From: Lentzea indica
GTDB taxonomy: Bacteria; Actinomycetota; Actinomycetes; Mycobacteriales; Pseudonocardiaceae
Length of the DNA stretch: 37,087 nt
Assembly (NCBI RefSeq): GCF_012184385.1
Contig: NZ_VSRL01000071.1
Coordinates: 1-37,087 of the forward strand
Direction: 5' to 3'
The notes under the pieces: generated by a model
Seen by the model: only the letters and a program-made list of their open reading frames with translations
Told to the model about the DNA's origin: nothing
The model's database searches: none
Shown: in pieces, positions 3,534 to 35,999 of the stretch
Layout: each line of letters begins with the position of its first letter
How positions within the stretch are numbered: position 1 is the first letter of the stretch
Position numbers and translations under genes: made by a program

Positions 3534-4742
3534 CTACGGCAGCAGCCGCCTGACGACGGCGTCGGCGAGCAGGCGACCCCGGTCGGTCAGCACGCAGCGG
3601 TCGTCGAGCGGTTCGAGCAACCCGTCGGCGACCGCCGACAGAGCCTCTGAACGGCCGGCGGTGTCCAGCACCTCGATCGGCAGACCTTCGGCGAGGCGCA
3701 GCTCCAGCAGCACCCGCTCCACCCGCCGGTCCTCGTCCGACAACACCTCACGCCCGGCCGCGGGCGACTTGCCCTCGGCCAGCAGGGACGAGTAGCGAGC
3801 AGGGTGCTTCACGTTCCAGAAGCGCACGCCGCCGACGTGGCTGTGCGCGCCGGGCCCGAAGCCCCACCAGTCGGCGCCCTTCCAGTACAGGACGTTGTGC
3901 TGGCACTGCGCCTCAAGAGAGGTGGCCCAGTTCGAGACCTCGTACCAGGAGAAGCCCGCGCCGGAGAGCGCCGAGTCGACCATCTCGTAGGACGAGGCCA
4001 GCACGTCGTCGTCGGGCATCGGGAGGTCGCCGCGGCGGATGCGGCGGGCCAGGCCGGTGCCGTCCTCCACGATCAACGCGTAGGCGGAGACGTGGTCGAC
4101 GCCGGCATCCAGCACCGCGTCCAGGGACGCCTTCAGATCAGCGGGCTGCTCCCCCGGCGTGCCGTAGATCAGGTCGAGGTTCACGTGCTCGAAGCCGGCC
4201 GCGCGGGCCTCCCTGGCGGCGTCCACCGGACGGCCAGGCGTGTGCTTGCGGTCCAGGACCTGCAGCACGTGGCGAGCTGCCGACTGCATACCAAGGGAGA
4301 CGCGGGTGTATCCCGCATCACGTATACCGGCGAAGAACGACGGCGACGTCGACTCCGGGTTCGACTCCGTCGTCACCTCGGCGCCAGGAGCCAGGCCGAA
4401 CGACTGATATATCGCATCCAATACATCAGACAGGCCCGAGGCGCCCAGCAGCGACGGGGTACCACCGCCGACGAACACTGTCGACGCGGGCACCGGAGAT
4501 CCGAGAACGGAAGCGGCCAGGTCCAGCTCGCGGCGCAGACCCTCCAGCCACGACTCCGGCGACGCCGAGGTTCCCAGCTCGCCGGGCGTGTAGGTGTTGA
4601 AGTCGCAGTAGCCGCACCGGGTGGCGCAGAACGGCACGTGGACGTAGATGCCGAACGGGCGGGTACCGACGCCGGACAGGGCATCCTGAGGAAGCGAACC
4701 GTCGGCGGGCGCGGGCTCGCCTTCGGGCAAAGCGGAGGGCAT
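3534..4742 (-). CDS. hemW: HemW, radical SAM haem chaperone (coproporphyrinogen III oxidase-like)
   Basis: HemW-family proteins bind haem and a [4Fe-4S] cluster and are thought to deliver haem to apoproteins; they are often misannotated as oxygen-independent coproporphyrinogen oxidases. The 402-aa product has the radical SAM signature CATRCGYC (C39, C43, C46; CX3CX2C) right after GIYVHVPF. The following TVFVGGGTPSLL is the SAM-binding glycine motif, and NLDLIYGTPGEQ and SAYALIVEDGT are typical HemW segments. The C-terminal part (WWGFGPGAHSHVGG, RVERVLLELRLAEGL) is the HemN_C region. I chose ATG 4742 because MPSALPEGEPAPADG matches the usual actinobacterial N-terminus; a longer in-frame ORF up to 4793 exists. 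It converges stop-to-stop with the small gene at 3306. Confidence 0.95.
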   Translation of the reverse strand: MPSALPEGEPAPADGSLPQDALSGVGTRPFGIYVHVPFCATRCGYCDFNTYTPGELGTSASPESWLEGLRRELDLAASVLGSPVPASTVFVGGGTPSLLGASGLSDVLDAIYQSFGLAPGAEVTTESNPESTSPSFFAGIRDAGYTRVSLGMQSAARHVLQVLDRKHTPGRPVDAAREARAAGFEHVNLDLIYGTPGEQPADLKASLDAVLDAGVDHVSAYALIVEDGTGLARRIRRGDLPMPDDDVLASSYEMVDSALSGAGFSWYEVSNWATSLEAQCQHNVLYWKGADWWGFGPGAHSHVGGVRFWNVKHPARYSSLLAEGKSPAAGREVLSDEDRRVERVLLELRLAEGLPIEVLDTAGRSEALSAVADGLLEPLDDRCVLTDRGRLLADAVVRRLLP

Positions 4743-4796
4743 GACGCTCAGTGTCCACCACGGCGCCCGAACGGCGGTGCCCAGCCAGTGCACATC

Positions 4797-4811
4797 TCTG
4801 TCGGTGACAGA
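4797..4811. promoter_or_regulatory. Inverted repeat between hemW and the sulfur operon leader
   Basis: TCTGTC-GGT-GACAGA is a perfect 6-bp-arm inverted repeat, 55 nt upstream of hemW and about 100 nt upstream of the leader ORF at 4915. It could be an operator in this divergent promoter region. No regulator can be assigned from the sequence. Confidence 0.25.
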
Positions 4812-4879
4812 AGTATCACTCTGCGAAACCGGCCGAGAATGTCAACTTCCCCAGCAAAATCCCAGCATGCGGTTGGCGG

Positions 4880-4908
4880 TGGACCATGCTCTGGACGCCA
4901 GGCACACT
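4880..4908 (+). promoter_or_regulatory. Candidate promoter of the sulfur-assimilation leader
   Basis: TGGACC (4880-4885, 4 of 6 matches to TTGACA) and CACACT (4903-4908, 3 of 6 matches to TATAAT) are separated by 17 nt. The -10 ends 6 nt before the ATG of the leader peptide at 4915, the spacing expected if transcription starts on the ATG itself (a leaderless transcript). There is no well-placed ribosome-binding site before that ATG, which agrees with this reading. The individual elements are weak. Confidence 0.35.
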
Positions 4909-4914
4909 GAGGTC

Positions 4915-5001
4915 ATGCCTTCGACTGGAGTCCGCCTCGTGGCCCGCCGCCACGTCGACTTCCGTCGTGTTTCCAGCGCGATGTGCCGTTGCACGGCATG
5001 A
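4915..5001 (+). CDS. Cysteine-containing leader peptide of the sulfur-assimilation operon
   Basis: The 28-codon ORF encodes a peptide ending RRHVDFRRVSSAMCRCTA. The ARRHVDxxRVSSAxC pattern matches a class of short actinobacterial putative leader peptides that I recall upstream of sulfur and cysteine genes. Its two Cys codons (TGC at 4984 and 4990) lie near the end, where a ribosome short of Cys-tRNA would pause. The stop at 4999-5001 is 109 nt before sir. A small hairpin (TGCCGT-TGC-ACGGCA, 4984-4998) covers exactly the Cys codons. GAGGT lies only 1-2 nt before the ATG, too close to act well, so leaderless initiation is likely. The family and position suggest a cis-acting sensor rather than a functional peptide. 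Confidence 0.75.
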   Translation: MPSTGVRLVARRHVDFRRVSSAMCRCTA

Positions 5002-5104
5002 CCGCGCGCTGATTTGTTCCCGTCGGCGCCCGGCGCGCTGACGAGACCCCCACCACAAGCACCTCCGGGCTCGCACGCGCACCTGGCGCCTCGAACCCCG
5101 GAGG
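4974..5104 (+). promoter_or_regulatory. Putative cysteine-responsive translational attenuator over the sir ribosome-binding site
   Basis: Several complementary segments are arranged as an RNA switch. (1) CCTCCGGG at 5062-5069 pairs perfectly with CCCGGAGG at 5097-5104, which contains the sir ribosome-binding site, giving an 8-bp sequestering hairpin with a 27-nt loop. (2) GGCGCC at 5025-5030 pairs with GGCGCC at 5085-5090, extended by CGCG 5034-5037 with CGCG 5076-5079. This stem encloses the anti-RBS segment and cannot form together with stem 1 in a nested fold. (3) CAGCGCG at 4974-4980, inside the leader ORF just before the Cys codons, is complementary to CGCGCTG, which occurs twice downstream (5005-5011 and 5034-5040). 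A ribosome paused at the Cys codons would mask segment 3, favour stem 2 and free the ribosome-binding site. The pairings are seen; the mechanism is inferred, and GC-rich complementarity has a high chance background. Confidence 0.5.
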
Positions 5105-5110
5105 ATGGCG

Positions 5111-6790
5111 ATGGTCCCGCCGCAGACGTCACCGCGCGCCAAGCAGCGTCGCGGCGAGGGGCAGTGGGCGCTCGGTTACCGAGAGCCGCTGAACCCCAAC
5201 GAGCGGAGCAAGAAGGACGACAACCCGCTCAACGTCCGCGCCCGCATCGAGAACATCTACGCCCACGGCGGTTTCGACTCGATCGACCCGGCCGACCTGC
5301 GCGGACGGTTCCGCTGGTACGGCCTGTACACGCAGCGCAAGCCCGGCATCGACGGCGGCCGCACGGCCACGCTGGAGCCGGAAGAGCTGGACGACGAGTT
5401 CTTCATGATGCGCGTCCGCAGCGACGGCGGTGCGCTGTCTACGCAGCAGCTCAAGGTCCTTGGCGAGATCTCCCAGACGTACGCCCGCGACACCGCTGAC
5501 ATCACCGACCGGCAGAACATCCAGTACCACTGGATCCAGATCGAGGACGTTCCCAAGATCTGGCAGCAGCTCGAAGATGTCGGGCTCACCACGATGGAGG
5601 CGTGCGGTGACAGCCCGCGTGTCATCCTCGGTTCGCCCGTGGCGGGCATCTCCACCGACGAGGTCATCAACGGGCAGCCGGCGATCGACACGATCCTCGA
5701 GCGCTACATCGGCGACCCGCGGTTCTCCAACCTGCCGCGCAAGTTCAAGACCGCCATCTCCGGCCTGCAGGACGTCGCGCACGAGATCCACGACGTCGCG
5801 TTCGTCGGAGTCAACCACCCCGAGCACGGACCCGGCTTCGACCTGTGGGTCGGCGGCGGCCTGTCCACGAACCCCATGCTGGGCAAGCGACTCGGCGCGT
5901 GGGTGCCCCTCGACGAGGTGCCGGAAGTGTGGGAAGCCGTCATCAGCGTCTTCCGCGACTACGGCTACCGCAGGCTGCGGCACCGCGCGCGCATCAAGTT
6001 CCTCGTCGCCGACTGGGGCCCTGAGAAGTTCCGCCAGGTCATGGAGGACGAGTACCTCAAGCGCAAGATGATCGACGGCCCCGCGCCGGAAGTCCTTGCG
6101 CAGCAACTCGACCACATCGGTGTGCACGAACAGAAGGACGGCCTCTTCTACGTCGGCGCCGCACCGGTCGCTGGCCGGGTGTCCGGCACGATCCTCGTCG
6201 AGATCGCGAAGTTCGCCGAACGCGCCGGCTCCACCCGCGTCCGGTTCACTCCGCAGCAGAAGATCATCGTGCTCGACGTCCCCGAGTCCGAGGTCAAGAC
6301 GCTCAAGAGCGACCTCGCCAAGCTGGGCCTGCAGACCGATCCGTCGCCGTGGCGGCGCGGTGTGATGGCGTGCACCGGCATCGAGTTCTGCAAGCTCGCG
6401 ATCGTCGAGACCAAGGCCCGTGCCAACGACCTCGTCACGCAGCTCGAAGCCAACCTCAAGGACATCGTCGACGGCGTCACCGCGCCGATCACCGTGCACA
6501 TCAACGGCTGCCCCAACTCCTGCGCCCGCATCCAGACCGCGGACATCGGGCTCAAGGGCCAGATCGTCACGGACGACGAGGGCAACCAGGTCGAGGGCTT
6601 CCAGGTGCACCTCGGCGGCGGTCTCGGCCTCGACGCCGGTTTCGGCAGGAAGCTGCGCGGCCACAAGGTCACCGCGAACGAGCTCGCCGACTACGTCGAA
6701 CGGGTTGTGCGGAACTTCGTTGCCCAGCGCGAGGAAGACGAGCGCTTCGCGCAGTGGGTGGCGAGGGCCGAAGAGGGTGACTTGAAGTGA
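5111..6790 (+). CDS. sir: Ferredoxin-dependent assimilatory sulfite reductase (NirA/SirA type)
   Basis: This enzyme reduces sulfite to sulfide with six electrons, probably from ferredoxin, on a coupled sirohaem-[4Fe-4S] centre. The 559-aa product has two ferredoxin-like half domains and two nitrite/sulfite reductase domains. The cluster ligands are C421 and C427 (ACTGIEFC) and C467 and C471 (NGCPNSC). Tyr73 (GLYTQRKPG) and Cys165 (EACGDSPR) align in spacing with the Tyr-Cys pair described in Mycobacterium tuberculosis SirA, which favours sulfite over nitrite as substrate; so does the neighbourhood. I prefer ATG 5111 over ATG 5105 because GGAGG at 5100-5104 gives a 6-nt spacing only to 5111. 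The gene is first in the operon after the leader, and its stop overlaps the next start (GTGA). Confidence 0.95.
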   Translation: MVPPQTSPRAKQRRGEGQWALGYREPLNPNERSKKDDNPLNVRARIENIYAHGGFDSIDPADLRGRFRWYGLYTQRKPGIDGGRTATLEPEELDDEFFMMRVRSDGGALSTQQLKVLGEISQTYARDTADITDRQNIQYHWIQIEDVPKIWQQLEDVGLTTMEACGDSPRVILGSPVAGISTDEVINGQPAIDTILERYIGDPRFSNLPRKFKTAISGLQDVAHEIHDVAFVGVNHPEHGPGFDLWVGGGLSTNPMLGKRLGAWVPLDEVPEVWEAVISVFRDYGYRRLRHRARIKFLVADWGPEKFRQVMEDEYLKRKMIDGPAPEVLAQQLDHIGVHEQKDGLFYVGAAPVAGRVSGTILVEIAKFAERAGSTRVRFTPQQKIIVLDVPESEVKTLKSDLAKLGLQTDPSPWRRGVMACTGIEFCKLAIVETKARANDLVTQLEANLKDIVDGVTAPITVHINGCPNSCARIQTADIGLKGQIVTDDEGNQVEGFQVHLGGGLGLDAGFGRKLRGHKVTANELADYVERVVRNFVAQREEDERFAQWVARAEEGDLK

Positions 6791-6945
6791 CCGAACGCGC
6801 GACGCCGTTCTACTGCCCCTACTGCGGCGACGAGGACCTCCGGCCGCAGGAGGAACCCAGCTACGCGTGGCTGTGCGCCGGTTGCCGGCGCGTCTTCAAG
6901 GTCCAGTTCGTCGGGCTCAACCTGCCGCAGGAGGTGAAGAAGTGA
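6787..6945 (+). CDS. 52-aa double-CxxC protein between sir and cysH (CysX position)
   Basis: The ORF starts GTG at 6787, overlapping the sir stop by 4 nt, and its TGA (6943-6945) overlaps the cysH GTG, so it is translationally coupled on both sides. The 52-aa product has two CxxC knuckles, CPYC near residue 10 and CAGC near residue 32, separated by about 19 residues. This is a zinc-ribbon or rubredoxin-like arrangement able to bind one Zn or Fe ion. The first knuckle is followed by Gly (CPYCGDED). It ends with FKVQFVGLNLPQEVKK. In Corynebacterium glutamicum the equivalent position (cysI-cysX-cysH) holds a small ferredoxin-like protein, CysX. That suggests an electron-carrier or assembly role for Sir or CysH here; this is inference from position, since the sequence is not a classical ferredoxin. 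Confidence 0.85.
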   Translation: MTERATPFYCPYCGDEDLRPQEEPSYAWLCAGCRRVFKVQFVGLNLPQEVKK

Positions 6946-7637
6946 GCGATCTCAAGGAAGATCTCAAGATCGTCGCTGAGGCGGCCGAGCAGGAGCTCAG
7001 GGACGCCACCGCGATCGAGGCCCTGGAGTGGACCGCGCGGACGTTCGGCGACAACTACATCGTCGCGTCGAACATGCAGGACGCCGTGCTGATCGACCTC
7101 GCAGCCAAGGTGAAGCCGAACTTCGACGTGCTGTTCCTGGAGACGGGCTACCACTTCCCGGAGACCATCGGCGTGCGTGACGCCGTCGGTGTCGTCTACC
7201 CGGACGTGCGCATCGTGAACGCCGCGGCCGAGCAGTCCGTGGCGGACCAGGAGGCCGAGTTCGGCCTGCTGTACCAGACGGATCCGGCCAAGTGCTGCAA
7301 CCTGCGCAAGGTGGTTCCTCTGCGCAGGGAGCTCGCGAAGTACGACGCGTGGGTTACCGGTGTGCGCCGCGTGGACGCGCCCACCCGCGCGAACACGCCG
7401 ATCGTCCAGTGGGACGACCGCAACGGCCTGGTGAAGATCAACCCGATCGCGCCGTGGAGCGATGACGAGTTCAACGCCTACATCCGCGAGAAGGGCATCC
7501 TCGAGAACTTGCTGGTGCAGGAGGGATATCCCTCGATCGGCTGCCTACCGTGCACCGCGAAGCCGTTGCCGGGGCAGGACGCCCGCAGCGGCCGGTGGGC
7601 CGGCCAGTCGAAGACGGAATGTGGGTTGCACGGATGA
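6942..7637 (+). CDS. cysH: Adenylylsulfate (APS) reductase, thioredoxin-dependent
   Basis: CysH reduces adenosine 5'-phosphosulfate to sulfite and AMP using thioredoxin. The 231-aa product is in the family size range and carries the full set of cluster ligands of the APS-type enzyme: C118 and C119 (AKCCNLRK), C201 and C204 (SIGCLPC). These bind a [4Fe-4S] cluster absent from PAPS-specific enzymes. The catalytic Cys227 sits in the C-terminal ECGLH motif. The absence of a cysC (APS kinase) gene in this operon agrees with APS as substrate. The GTG at 6942 is chosen because GGAGG at 6930-6934 precedes it by 7 nt. Its TGA overlaps the cysD ATG (ATGA), implying coupled translation. Confidence 0.96.
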   Translation: MSDLKEDLKIVAEAAEQELRDATAIEALEWTARTFGDNYIVASNMQDAVLIDLAAKVKPNFDVLFLETGYHFPETIGVRDAVGVVYPDVRIVNAAAEQSVADQEAEFGLLYQTDPAKCCNLRKVVPLRRELAKYDAWVTGVRRVDAPTRANTPIVQWDDRNGLVKINPIAPWSDDEFNAYIREKGILENLLVQEGYPSIGCLPCTAKPLPGQDARSGRWAGQSKTECGLHG

Positions 7638-8539
7638 CCGTCACAAAGACACTGGACACCTTGGGGCGCCTCGAATCGGAGGCGATCCACATCTTCCGCG
7701 AGGTCGCGGGCGAGTTCGACCGGCCGGTGATCCTCTTCTCCGGTGGCAAGGACTCCACGCTCCTGCTGCACCTCGCGATCAAGGCGTTCTACCCGGCGCC
7801 GGTGCCGTTCCCGCTGCTGCACGTCGACACCGGGCACAACTTCGACGAGGTCATCGAGTTCCGCGATCGTGTTGTCGCACAACATGGTCTGCGTCTCGAG
7901 GTCGCGAAGGTCCAGGACTGGATCGACGACGGCCGCCTGGAGGAGCGCCCGGACGGCACGCGCAACCCGCTGCAGACCGTGCCGCTGCTCGACTCGATCA
8001 CCGCGCACAAGTTCGACGCGGTGTTCGGCGGCGGCCGCAGGGACGAGGAACGGGCCCGCGCCAAGGAGCGGATCTTCAGCCTGCGCACGGCTTTCGGCCA
8101 GTGGGACCCGAAGCGCCAGCGGCCAGAGCTGTGGAACCTCTACAACGGCAGGCACCGCGCCGGTGAGCACGTCCGCGTCTTCCCGCTGTCCAACTGGACC
8201 GAGCTCGACGTGTGGAACTACATCGAGCGCGAGGGCATCGAGCTGCCGGACATCTACTACTCGCACGAGCGCGAGGTGTTCCTGCGCGACGGCATGTGGC
8301 TCGCCGAAGGCCCGTGGGGCACCGCCCGTGAAGGCGAAACGTTGCTGCGCAAGACGGTCCGCTATCGCACGGTCGGTGACGGCTCCTGCACGGGCGCCGT
8401 CGAGTCCGACGCCGCCGACATCCACGCGGTGATCGCCGAGGTCGCCGCGTCACGACTGACCGAGCGCGGCGCCACGCGTGCCGACGACCGGCTGTCCGAG
8501 GCCGCCATGGAAGACCGCAAGCGGGAGGGTTACTTCTAA
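7634..8539 (+). CDS. cysD: Sulfate adenylyltransferase subunit 2 (ATP sulfurylase, small subunit)
   Basis: CysD catalyses formation of APS from sulfate and ATP, with energy supplied by GTP hydrolysis on CysN. The 301-aa product belongs to the PP-loop (PAPS reductase-like) ATP pyrophosphatase family: SGGKDS at residues 36-41 is the PP-loop, followed by HVDTGHNF. FGGGRRDEERARAKER and RVFPLSNWTELDVW are conserved CysD segments, and the C-terminus EDRKREGYF is the family end. It starts at ATG 7634, overlapping the cysH stop by 4 nt, and its TAA is directly followed by the cysN ATG. Confidence 0.97.
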   Translation: MTVTKTLDTLGRLESEAIHIFREVAGEFDRPVILFSGGKDSTLLLHLAIKAFYPAPVPFPLLHVDTGHNFDEVIEFRDRVVAQHGLRLEVAKVQDWIDDGRLEERPDGTRNPLQTVPLLDSITAHKFDAVFGGGRRDEERARAKERIFSLRTAFGQWDPKRQRPELWNLYNGRHRAGEHVRVFPLSNWTELDVWNYIEREGIELPDIYYSHEREVFLRDGMWLAEGPWGTAREGETLLRKTVRYRTVGDGSCTGAVESDAADIHAVIAEVAASRLTERGATRADDRLSEAAMEDRKREGYF

Positions 8540-9883
8540 ATGAGCGACCTGTTGAGGCTGGCCACGGCGGGAAGTGTGGACGACGGCAAGTCCACGCTCG
8601 TCGGCAGGCTGCTCTACGACACCAAGTCCGTGCTCGCGGACACGCTCGACGCCGTGCACCGCGCGAGCGCCGACCGCGGTCTCGCGACCCCGGACCTGTC
8701 GCTGCTGGTCGACGGCCTGCGGTCGGAGCGGGAGCAGGGCATCACGATCGACGTGGCGTACCGCTACTTCGCCACGCCCAAGCGATCGTTCGTGCTCGCG
8801 GACACCCCCGGCCACGTGCAGTACACCCGCAACACCGTCACCGGCGCCTCGACCGCGCAGCTCGCGGTACTGCTCGTCGACGCGCGCAAGGGCGTCATCG
8901 AGCAGACCCGGCGCCACGCCGCGGTTCTCGCACTGCTGGGCGTGCCTCGCCTGGTGCTGGCGGTCAACAAGATCGACCTCGTGGACTACGACGAGGTGAC
9001 GTTCTCTCGCATCGCCAAGGAGTTCACCGCTCACGCCACCGCGCTCGGCTACACCGAGGACGCGGTCGTCGAGATCCCGGTTTCCGCTCTGGCCGGCGAC
9101 AACGTCGTGGACAAGTCCGCGAACACGCCGTGGTACGACGGCCCGACCCTGCTGGAGCACCTGGAGAACGTGCCGGTCGAGCCGGACCCGCACGACGCGC
9201 CGTTCCGCTTCCCGGTGCAGTACGTGATCCGCCCGCGCACCGCAGAGCACCTGGACTACCGGGGTTACGCCGGTCTGGTCGCGGCGGGCACGATCAAGCC
9301 GGGTGACGAGATCGTCGTGCTGCCGTCGGGCCGCCGCTCGACCGTCACGAAGATCGACACGGCCGACGGCGAACTGACCGAGGCTGCGGCGGGCCAGTCG
9401 GTCACGTTGCTGCTGGCCGACGACATCGACATCTCGCGCGGCGACCTGATCTCGGTGGCGGGCAACGAGCCCAAGGTCACCGACGAACTGGACGCCACCC
9501 TGTGCTGGCTCGCGGAGAAGCCGCTGCGGCCCGGCGCCCGAGTTCTCGTCAAGCACGGCACGCGCACCGTGCAGGCGATGGTCACCGAACTGCGCGACCG
9601 CTTCGACGAGCAGAAGCTGTCCAGTGTGGACAGCCCCAGCTCGTTGGAGCTAAACGAGATCGGCCGAGTGGCTCTGCGTCTGGCGGAACCCGTTCCGCTG
9701 GACGACTACAGCTTCAGCCGGCGCACCGGGTCCTTCCTGGTGATCGACGCGAGCGATGGCTCGACGCTCGCCGCCGGCCTGGTCGGGGCTCCGCTGCCGC
9801 TGCTCGAGGACGGCTTGGAGAGCTGTACCGGGGGTAGCGCGGCTACCCCTGACGCTCACGCCCTCGTCTCCCCCGGTCCCTGA
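8540..9883 (+). CDS. cysN: Sulfate adenylyltransferase subunit 1 (GTPase subunit)
   Basis: CysN is the EF-Tu-like GTPase partner of CysD that drives APS synthesis. The 447-aa product shows G1 GSVDDGKST (residues 11-19), the effector region EREQGITIDVAYRYF, G3 DTPGH (88-92) and G4 NKID, then two beta-barrel domains. Length and end show a stand-alone CysN without the fused CysC kinase domain found in some bacteria. The ATG at 8540 begins right after the cysD TAA, with GGGAGGG at 8523-8529 as ribosome-binding site. The C-terminal residues after LVGAPLPLLEDGL are low in conservation. The ABC-transporter genes follow 14 nt later. Confidence 0.96.
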   Translation: MSDLLRLATAGSVDDGKSTLVGRLLYDTKSVLADTLDAVHRASADRGLATPDLSLLVDGLRSEREQGITIDVAYRYFATPKRSFVLADTPGHVQYTRNTVTGASTAQLAVLLVDARKGVIEQTRRHAAVLALLGVPRLVLAVNKIDLVDYDEVTFSRIAKEFTAHATALGYTEDAVVEIPVSALAGDNVVDKSANTPWYDGPTLLEHLENVPVEPDPHDAPFRFPVQYVIRPRTAEHLDYRGYAGLVAAGTIKPGDEIVVLPSGRRSTVTKIDTADGELTEAAAGQSVTLLLADDIDISRGDLISVAGNEPKVTDELDATLCWLAEKPLRPGARVLVKHGTRTVQAMVTELRDRFDEQKLSSVDSPSSLELNEIGRVALRLAEPVPLDDYSFSRRTGSFLVIDASDGSTLAAGLVGAPLPLLEDGLESCTGGSAATPDAHALVSPGP

Positions 9884-35869: not shown

Positions 35870-35871
35870 GT

Positions 35872-35966
35872 GAGGTCGACTCGGAGCGCCCTGTCAGCAT
35901 TGCTGCTGATGGGTTTCTCCGAGCCGCCTCCCGAACCCGGCGTGCCCATTACTGAGCACCGGGCTC
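35872..35966 (-). ncRNA. Group II intron domains V and VI
   Basis: Domain V is the 34-nt hairpin 35933-35966. On the minus strand it begins GAGCCCGGTGCTCA, has a GTAA tetraloop (GNRA class) and ends GGGTTC. The pairing gives a 7-bp lower stem, a 2-nt bulge on the 3' side and a 6-bp upper stem, the canonical layout. Domain VI (35872-35930) pairs GAGG and CGGCTCGGAG with CTCCGAGTCG and CCTC, leaving one bulged A at 35876, the branch-point nucleotide, 7 nt from the predicted 3' splice site. Confidence 0.88.
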
Positions 35967-35999
35967 TCCATGATTCCCGTGTGGACGTTGCCGATTTCC

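Follow-up and report, generated by a model that had tools for sequence, protein, structure and literature searches.

A single-cysteine member of a known leader peptide family before putatively competing RNA hairpins upstream of sir in Lentzea indica

Upstream of a putative sulfite reductase gene (sir) in Lentzea indica, a short open reading frame with cysteine codons near its end is followed by complementary segments that could hide the ribosome-binding site, which raises the question of whether and how cysteine supply controls the genes behind it. The window analysed here is a stretch of 37,087 nucleotides from a genome of 9.97 Mb, and all the features described below lie on its forward strand unless otherwise noted. 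As judged from sequence comparisons, the Lentzea sir leader belongs to a known leader family, within which it has a single conserved Cys codon, and it lies before a set of predicted competing RNA hairpins. The explanation favoured here, with a chance slightly better than even (about 0.55), is that a leaderless cysteine leader of the NF042934/Ms4527A kind would control sir-cysH-cysD-cysN by attenuation, most likely at the initiation of sir translation.

To begin with the controlled genes, sir (5111-6790) belongs to the nitrite/sulfite reductase family (Pfam NIR_SIR, 5e-60), and its name as a sulfite reductase rests on family and operon, as its NCBIfam matches were all under their cut-offs. Its start is more likely the ATG at 5111 than position 5105, since the latter abuts the Shine-Dalgarno (SD) sequence GGAGG (5100-5104) and the former was kept in 24/24 Lentzea genomes versus 23/24. 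Downstream, cysH (6942-7637) and cysN (8540-9883) were matched over NCBIfam cut-offs, and cysD (7634-8539) was named from its position, sequence and open frame. This operon function fits a control by cysteine and was counted in favour of attenuation. A small ORF between sir and cysH (6787-6945) presents two CxxC pairs and appears zinc-ribbon-like by eye. The five best named relatives of sir were all from Lentzea (93-95% identity), followed by Saccharothrix (85-87%).

The leader peptide, its start and its cysteine codons

The leader ORF comprises 28 codons, from the ATG at 4915 to the TGA at 4999-5001, and encodes MPSTGVRLVARRHVDFRRVSSAMCRCTA. It matched the whole 19-position NCBIfam model NF042934 (putative leader peptide, cis_reg_atten), which covers the peptide only, with 31.2 bits (cut-off of 27), while its score of 28.4 bits did not reach the 45-bit cut-off of NF042936 (leader_Ms4527A). 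At least one NF042934 match over the cut-off was found in each of the 24 Lentzea genomes and in none of the 14 control genomes (E 0.01); at E 10, weak matches appeared in 10 of these 14, none of them over the cut-off. Furthermore, the motif LV.R[RH][HY][VIL]D..RV[ASNC]S..C was present upstream of sir in 119 of 123 regions of the family, from 35 genera, these regions (24 from Lentzea and 99 from other genera) being picked among the matches listed for closeness and spread. Visual inspection of 20 further regions, of which 19 belong to other families of the order, showed related peptides in every one of them, and a related leader preceded sir at 71 of the 80 named actinobacterial loci compared, where 3 of the 9 misses had less than 140 nt upstream. 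On this comparative ground the leader ORF is taken to be a genuine conserved peptide gene. A first-pass annotation of this DNA had described a cysteine leader peptide before sir, and both the peptide and its conservation in relatives were borne out; moreover, the elements that it described were all found in place, including the TGC codons at 4984-4986 and 4990-4992, CAGCGCG at 4974-4980, and CGCGCTG at 5005-5011 and 5034-5040.

The reading frame of the leader is open further upstream, up to an ATG at 4741, and 4915 was taken as the start because of the conserved promoter spacing. A promoter-like element (4880-4908), consisting of TGGACC (4880-4885), 17 nt and CACACT (4903-4908), ends 6 nt before this start. 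Among the 116 of the 123 regions where the leader motif used for this particular count matched, 106 had a CACNCT-like box ending 6 nt (64) or 7 nt (42) upstream of the leader start, three had it at other spacings and seven had no box, a count that is somewhat circular because the start codon was chosen among in-frame candidates using the box, although the narrow spacing was not forced. The -35-like box was only assessed visually, in a single sequence per genus, and a standard sigma-70 scan for a leader promoter found nothing. Given this narrow spacing of the box, the sir leader mRNA is probably leaderless.

With regard to the sensing codons, a run of adjacent Cys codons is absent from the Lentzea leader, which has one conserved Cys codon (TGC, 4984-4986), present in 24/24 Lentzea genomes and representing the putative stall site. 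A second one (TGC, 4990-4992) was kept in only 4 of the 24 (those with CRC), so that the two Cys codons earlier described near the ORF end do exist in the window, but sensing by both of them was rejected or at least weakened. In codons 2-24, the 24 Lentzea sequences showed 0, 1 and 6 variable sites at the first, second and third codon positions, respectively, versus 2, 2 and 2 in the four codons past the Cys codon; likewise, in a set of 38 sequences the figures were 5, 3 and 11 before the Cys codon and 3, 3 and 3 after it. This third-position bias before the codon and the even spread after it suggest that selection on the peptide extends as far as the Cys codon and then ceases.

Such a constraint bears on the idea of a nascent-peptide sensor, in which the conserved body, lying in the exit tunnel, would let a single Cys codon stall the ribosome, the RNA being secondary. 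In its favour, the coding constraint covers codons 2-24 and stops once the Cys codon is reached, and leaders with as few terminal Cys residues as one (Lentzea, Streptomyces) and as many as five or six (loci L229 and L238) have the body LVxRRHxDxxRVxSxxC in common; related bodies also appear before other genes in the same genome. However, the constraint could reflect other needs, and the pN/pS of 0.28 stems from sequences selected by the motif. This sensor, which would be compatible with the favoured attenuation of sir, is considered distinctly unlikely as the main explanation.

RNA elements between the leader and sir

The region that follows the leader has a layout common to Lentzea and related genera: the post-stop box comes first and a central hairpin (P2) next, then a C-rich linker and finally the SD-hiding stem, which encloses an inner hairpin. 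Before these, a small hairpin (P1, 4984-4998), TGCCG/CGGCA, lies over the Cys codons and adjoins the stop codon; it appeared in the predicted folds of the window leader and of some related leaders, with a weak coevolution of pairing 1:2 (z of -1.2). The post-stop box CCGCGCGCTGA (5002-5012, strand 2) is complementary to 5023-5033, within P2 (5021-5043, strands 3:4), the 3′ arm of which is the second CGCGCTG copy (5034-5040). In the SD-hiding stem, the anti-SD arm CCTCCGGG (5062-5069) forms 8 pairs with the SD arm CCCGGAGG (5097-5104), and in the latter none of the 8 sites varied among the 24 Lentzea sequences, while a single one did in the 38-sequence set. Finally, folds of growing transcripts predicted an anti-sequestor helix between 5025-5049 and 5067-5090, the 3′ side of which overlaps the anti-SD arm.

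The linker at 5046-5066 is C-rich and G-poor (13 C and 1 G of 21) and may be a possible loading region for Rho. Together with P2, which is a strong GC hairpin, it speaks for an attenuation of transcription, whereby plentiful cysteine would allow Rho, or a hairpin without a U-tract, to stop the RNA between the leader and sir, and a stalled ribosome would prevent it. Rho was also proposed for mycobacterial cys leaders, a prediction called weak in the part of the source available (Seliverstov et al. 2005, PMC1262725). Nevertheless, terminator-like sites (a GC stem followed by a U-tract) were absent from 4700-5300, by which an intrinsic terminator was rejected, such a mechanism would make the SD-hiding stem superfluous, and the M. 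smegmatis cys leaders are reported, in the portions available of PMC13236596 and PMC9031893, as translation attenuation. Attenuation of transcription is rather unlikely here. The window presented no Rfam riboswitch or T-box at gathering score; its single match was a group II catalytic intron on the minus strand (35870-35968; 48 bits, gathering 40).

The pairings were examined in 22 genera selected visually because they display the architecture, with 86 of the 123 regions segmented. Five of these sequences (L128, L125, L105, L139 and L141), in which automatic segmentation put the SD or P2 in the wrong place, were set aside, so that 81 sequences remained, representing 19 genera. For 17 segment pairs, the energy of pairing within a sequence (matched) was then compared with that between segments taken from different genera (crossed). 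The strongest signal was that of P2 (3:4, z of -5.3), followed by the P2 3′ arm with the spacer (4:5, -2.6), the post-stop box with the P2 5′ arm (2:3, -2.5) and the spacer with the SD (5:6, -2.35). Against dinucleotide shuffles, using at most two sequences per genus in the 19 genera, the genus-level mean z values were -1.8 for P2, -1.2 for the SD stem, -1.4 for 2:3 and -1.4 for 4:5, being negative in 18, 17, 18 and 18 of the 19 genera, respectively, with a mean p below 0.05 in only 9, 4, 5 and 6 of them. Lentzea passed this test for all four pairings, and its SD-hiding pairing reached a mean z of -3.6 and a mean p of 0.007 against dinucleotide shuffles of the spacer (two sequences). The 8-bp stem that had been proposed to bury the ribosome-binding site (5062-5069/5097-5104) was thus present and better than shuffles in Lentzea.

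P2, overlooked in the first-pass annotation, is the best-supported part of the RNA. Among the 62 sequences with a five-base loop (36 distinct sequences from 15 genera), taken from all 86 with the five dropped elsewhere left in, pair 7 was C-G in 8 genera and U-A in 5, and pair 9 was C-G in 7 genera and A-U in 5, with 22% and 39% of the sequences unpaired at these positions, respectively, and standard pairs accounted for 80% of the outer pairs 6-9 versus 10-29% when slid, all of which are figures that lean towards P2 because it was located by lowest energy. In an alignment of 38 close relatives (37 distinct), which had too little variation for a real covariation test and in which other genera had their SD stem and post-stop box shifted by a few columns, no two-sided changes were found in P2 or the SD stem. 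Exchanges of paired bases thus appeared across genera, at P2 pairs 7 and 9, but not among close relatives.

Within the same 38 sequences, the 4:5 helix alone had a covariation score reached by only 10 of 500 shuffles. The alternative stem first described as excluding the SD stem (GGCGCC at 5025-5030/5085-5090 and CGCG at 5034-5037/5076-5079) was correctly placed, is mutually exclusive with the SD stem and falls within the 21-bp anti-sequestor helix, but as a separate element it did not stand, since its palindromes showed no covariation beyond shuffles in these relatives, short GC palindromes being cheap in such DNA.

Beyond these genera, considering loci with a recognisable SD, the SD pairing was on average no better than shuffles in Streptomyces plus Yinghuangia (-0.2, 10/10 loci), Mycobacterium (+1.2, 8/10), Pseudonocardia (+0.3, 7/7), Amycolatopsis (0.0, 3/7) and Rhodococcoides plus Nocardia (+0.8, 3/3), with Saccharopolyspora at -1.1 (6/6). 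The peptide is therefore more widespread than the Lentzea-type RNA architecture. In four Amycolatopsis loci (L188, L191, L193 and L194), the leader stop appeared only about 60 nt before the start of the sir match, a gap too short for the layout of P2 and SD stem, which makes them a compact form of the leader.

A possible switch during transcription

In the classical trp-type attenuator, a leader codon for the end product is combined with alternating 1:2, 3:4 and 2:3 pairings. Both traits are shared by the Lentzea leader, which, in contrast, lacks a U-tract terminator and whose last hairpin would hide the SD instead. If Cys-tRNA were scarce, the first ribosome would stall with 4984-4986 in the A site, covering 4974-4980 and the first hairpin, which would favour the pairing of the post-stop box with the 5′ arm of P2. 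This pairing would free strand 4 for the anti-sequestor helix and, once that helix is present, sir could be initiated before the SD stem forms. If cysteine were plentiful, the ribosome would end at 4999 or leave, and the SD stem would form. We infer that stalling favours the SD-open state. Such an SD-hiding RNA switch of a single-Cys leader is plausible and partly supported by sequence comparison and predicted folds.

At equilibrium, the predicted accessibility of the SD in Lentzea was 0.02 alike for the ribosome-free, terminating and stalled states, and in the other 18 genera the change from terminating to stalled was not larger than 0.05. For growing transcripts ending at 5092 or 5098, when the SD arm is still incomplete, the best fold was the 21-bp helix 5025-5049/5067-5090, a helix that growing transcripts showed at all three ribosome positions tried, while once the transcript reached 5105 the SD stem formed, together with P2 if the leader was masked. 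With a ribosome-free leader and ends from 5105 to 5130, the best fold combined 8/8 pairs of the SD stem, 10/10 pairs of 2:3 and 7/7 pairs of 4974-4980/5034-5040. Moreover, 2:3 appeared together with the SD stem in the best folds of both the ribosome-free and the stalled window leader, so the 2:3 pairing is not enough by itself to open the SD. Since the stable fold in Lentzea hides the SD and an SD-open state exists en route during transcript growth, regulation, if any, must be kinetic (co-transcriptional).

These folds also speak for a static damper, that is, a leader that regulates while the alternative helices are chance products of a GC-rich sequence and the SD stem merely damps, as SD accessibility at equilibrium was independent of ribosome position and 2:3 coexisted with the SD stem. 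In the same direction, the originally proposed alternative stem lacked covariation in close relatives, a pair that was not predicted (1:4) reached a z of -2.7 in the matched versus crossed test, and the SD stem was not found in other groups. On the other hand, all four predicted pairings had negative genus-mean z values in 17 or 18 of the 19 genera and P2 alone reached -5.3 between matched and crossed segments. The static damper is held to be a rather unlikely explanation.

A further part of the switch first proposed was the capture of 5034-5040 by 4974-4980 under plentiful cysteine. The segment TCCAGCGCG (4972-4980), which contains 4974-4980, corresponds to Ser-Ser-Ala codons, and the Ser codons of the SSA-x-C part were TCC in 26/28 genera and AGC in 33/35, compared with an operon background of 23/67 TCC and 18/67 AGC among Ser codons, the genera not being independent of each other; elsewhere in this peptide, certain Arg and Val codons are free to vary and others show a bias as well. 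Such unusually fixed Ser codons support a role of 4974-4980 at the nucleotide level. In 9 of 19 genera it pairs best with the 3′ arm of P2, which is not decisive; pairing with strand 4 gave a matched versus crossed z of +1.2, and pairing with the post-stop box (5005-5011) one of -1.7. At least 4 of the expected pairs with 5034-5040 were reached in 13 of 24 Lentzea sequences but in only 5 of 57 from other genera, so that this pairing may act in Lentzea, where it would be a viable alternative helix exchange, and is no family feature. What stands of the capture is its complete pairing in the ribosome-free fold and the fixed Ser codons, while as a conserved feature it was rejected or at least weakened for showing no coevolution, mostly invariant pairs (5 of 7 never vary) and rarity outside Lentzea.

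Known cysteine leaders and the wider regulon

Polycysteine leaderless short ORFs of M. smegmatis were reportedly described by Canestrari et al. in 2020. The Lentzea leader resembles these ORFs, as portrayed in the parts of the literature available, in having Cys codons near the end of a probably leaderless ORF and a presumed control of downstream translation, and differs from their contiguous Cys codons in its one conserved codon. According to the available portions of a 2026 paper (PMC13236596) and a 2022 review (PMC9031893), the M. smegmatis cys leaders are regulatory and act on translation, and a 2022 study (PMC9094748), likewise available in part, presents them as regulatory; the three of them cite Canestrari et al. 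2020 for these leaders. Earlier, cysteine leader peptides without obvious terminators had been predicted before cys operons in mycobacteria and others (Seliverstov et al. 2005, PMC1262725), and cysteine-rich uORFs were found by Shell et al. 2015 (PMC4633059), both as given in the accessible parts of these papers. In a reannotation of S. lividans (PMC8079986), the sections available describe eight leader peptides, none of them before sir; towards its end, the one before metNIQ (Table 4), which is named methionine-dependent, carries three Cys codons, and it could be a cysteine leader. Among the publications listed in literature searches, none dealt with this leader in Lentzea or its family.

Among the mycobacterial sir leaders compared, two matched NF042936 leader_Ms4527A with 52.9 and 48.8 bits (cut-off of 45), and all ten ended in Cys-rich stretches (RVCTCCCLP, for instance), in contrast to the Cys-poor end of the Streptomyces sir leaders compared (SSAICPAG and the like). 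The Lentzea leader shares with the Ms4527A family the body LVxRRHVDFxRV.. and the place directly before sir, but it has one conserved Cys codon and a score below the 45-bit cut-off where that family has a Cys run such as CTCCC. Furthermore, the SD-hiding pairing of mycobacteria was on average no better than shuffles (8 of 10 loci testable), unlike that of Lentzea. As two mycobacterial sir leaders match the Ms4527A family, the locus represents no new layout, but a related locus of the known cysteine-attenuator class. The suggestion that control at translation initiation would set it apart from polycysteine uORFs was consequently abandoned, given that two mycobacterial sir leaders are of the same kind at the same locus and that translation attenuation is reported there in the accessible text of PMC13236596 and PMC9031893.

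The same Lentzea genome harbours a second leader over the NF042934 cut-off, MTMLLTKRRAVDLCRVRSSLCRTTS (C601:12443-12499, L031), which resembles NF042933 leader_Ms5788A (39.6 bits, cut-off of 45) and precedes genes for a DUF4395 protein and a rhodanese-like sulfurtransferase. In addition, three sub-threshold candidates with Cys near the end were observed: one before an ABC permease (C176:6868-6924, L033), the best match of which was a cystine permease model, below its cut-off; another before an SsuE-like FMN reductase (C56:12893-12943, L034), an assignment just below the cut-off; and a third before an SDF symporter (C212:2087-2128, L036). Judging from these sequences, a cysteine regulon served by further leaders is possible in this genome.

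A bolder and tentative proposal, to which only a low probability is assigned, is that the body LVxRRHxDxxRVxSxxC in the exit tunnel lets one Cys codon replace the mycobacterial run, so that a stall would lead to 2:3, then 4:5 and an open sir SD, and that the number of Cys codons has been traded against peptide-assisted stalling in Actinobacteria. If the attenuation of sir by the leader is true, the mycobacterial class of cysteine-responsive leaders would also take in Pseudonocardiaceae and Streptomyces, where one codon would do the sensing, which poses the question of how one codon carries the signal and whether the conserved peptide body belongs to the sensor. The Lentzea leader would also offer a short, non-pathogen model where reporter mutants could tell apart the contributions of coding constraint, leaderless initiation and SD-hiding RNA.
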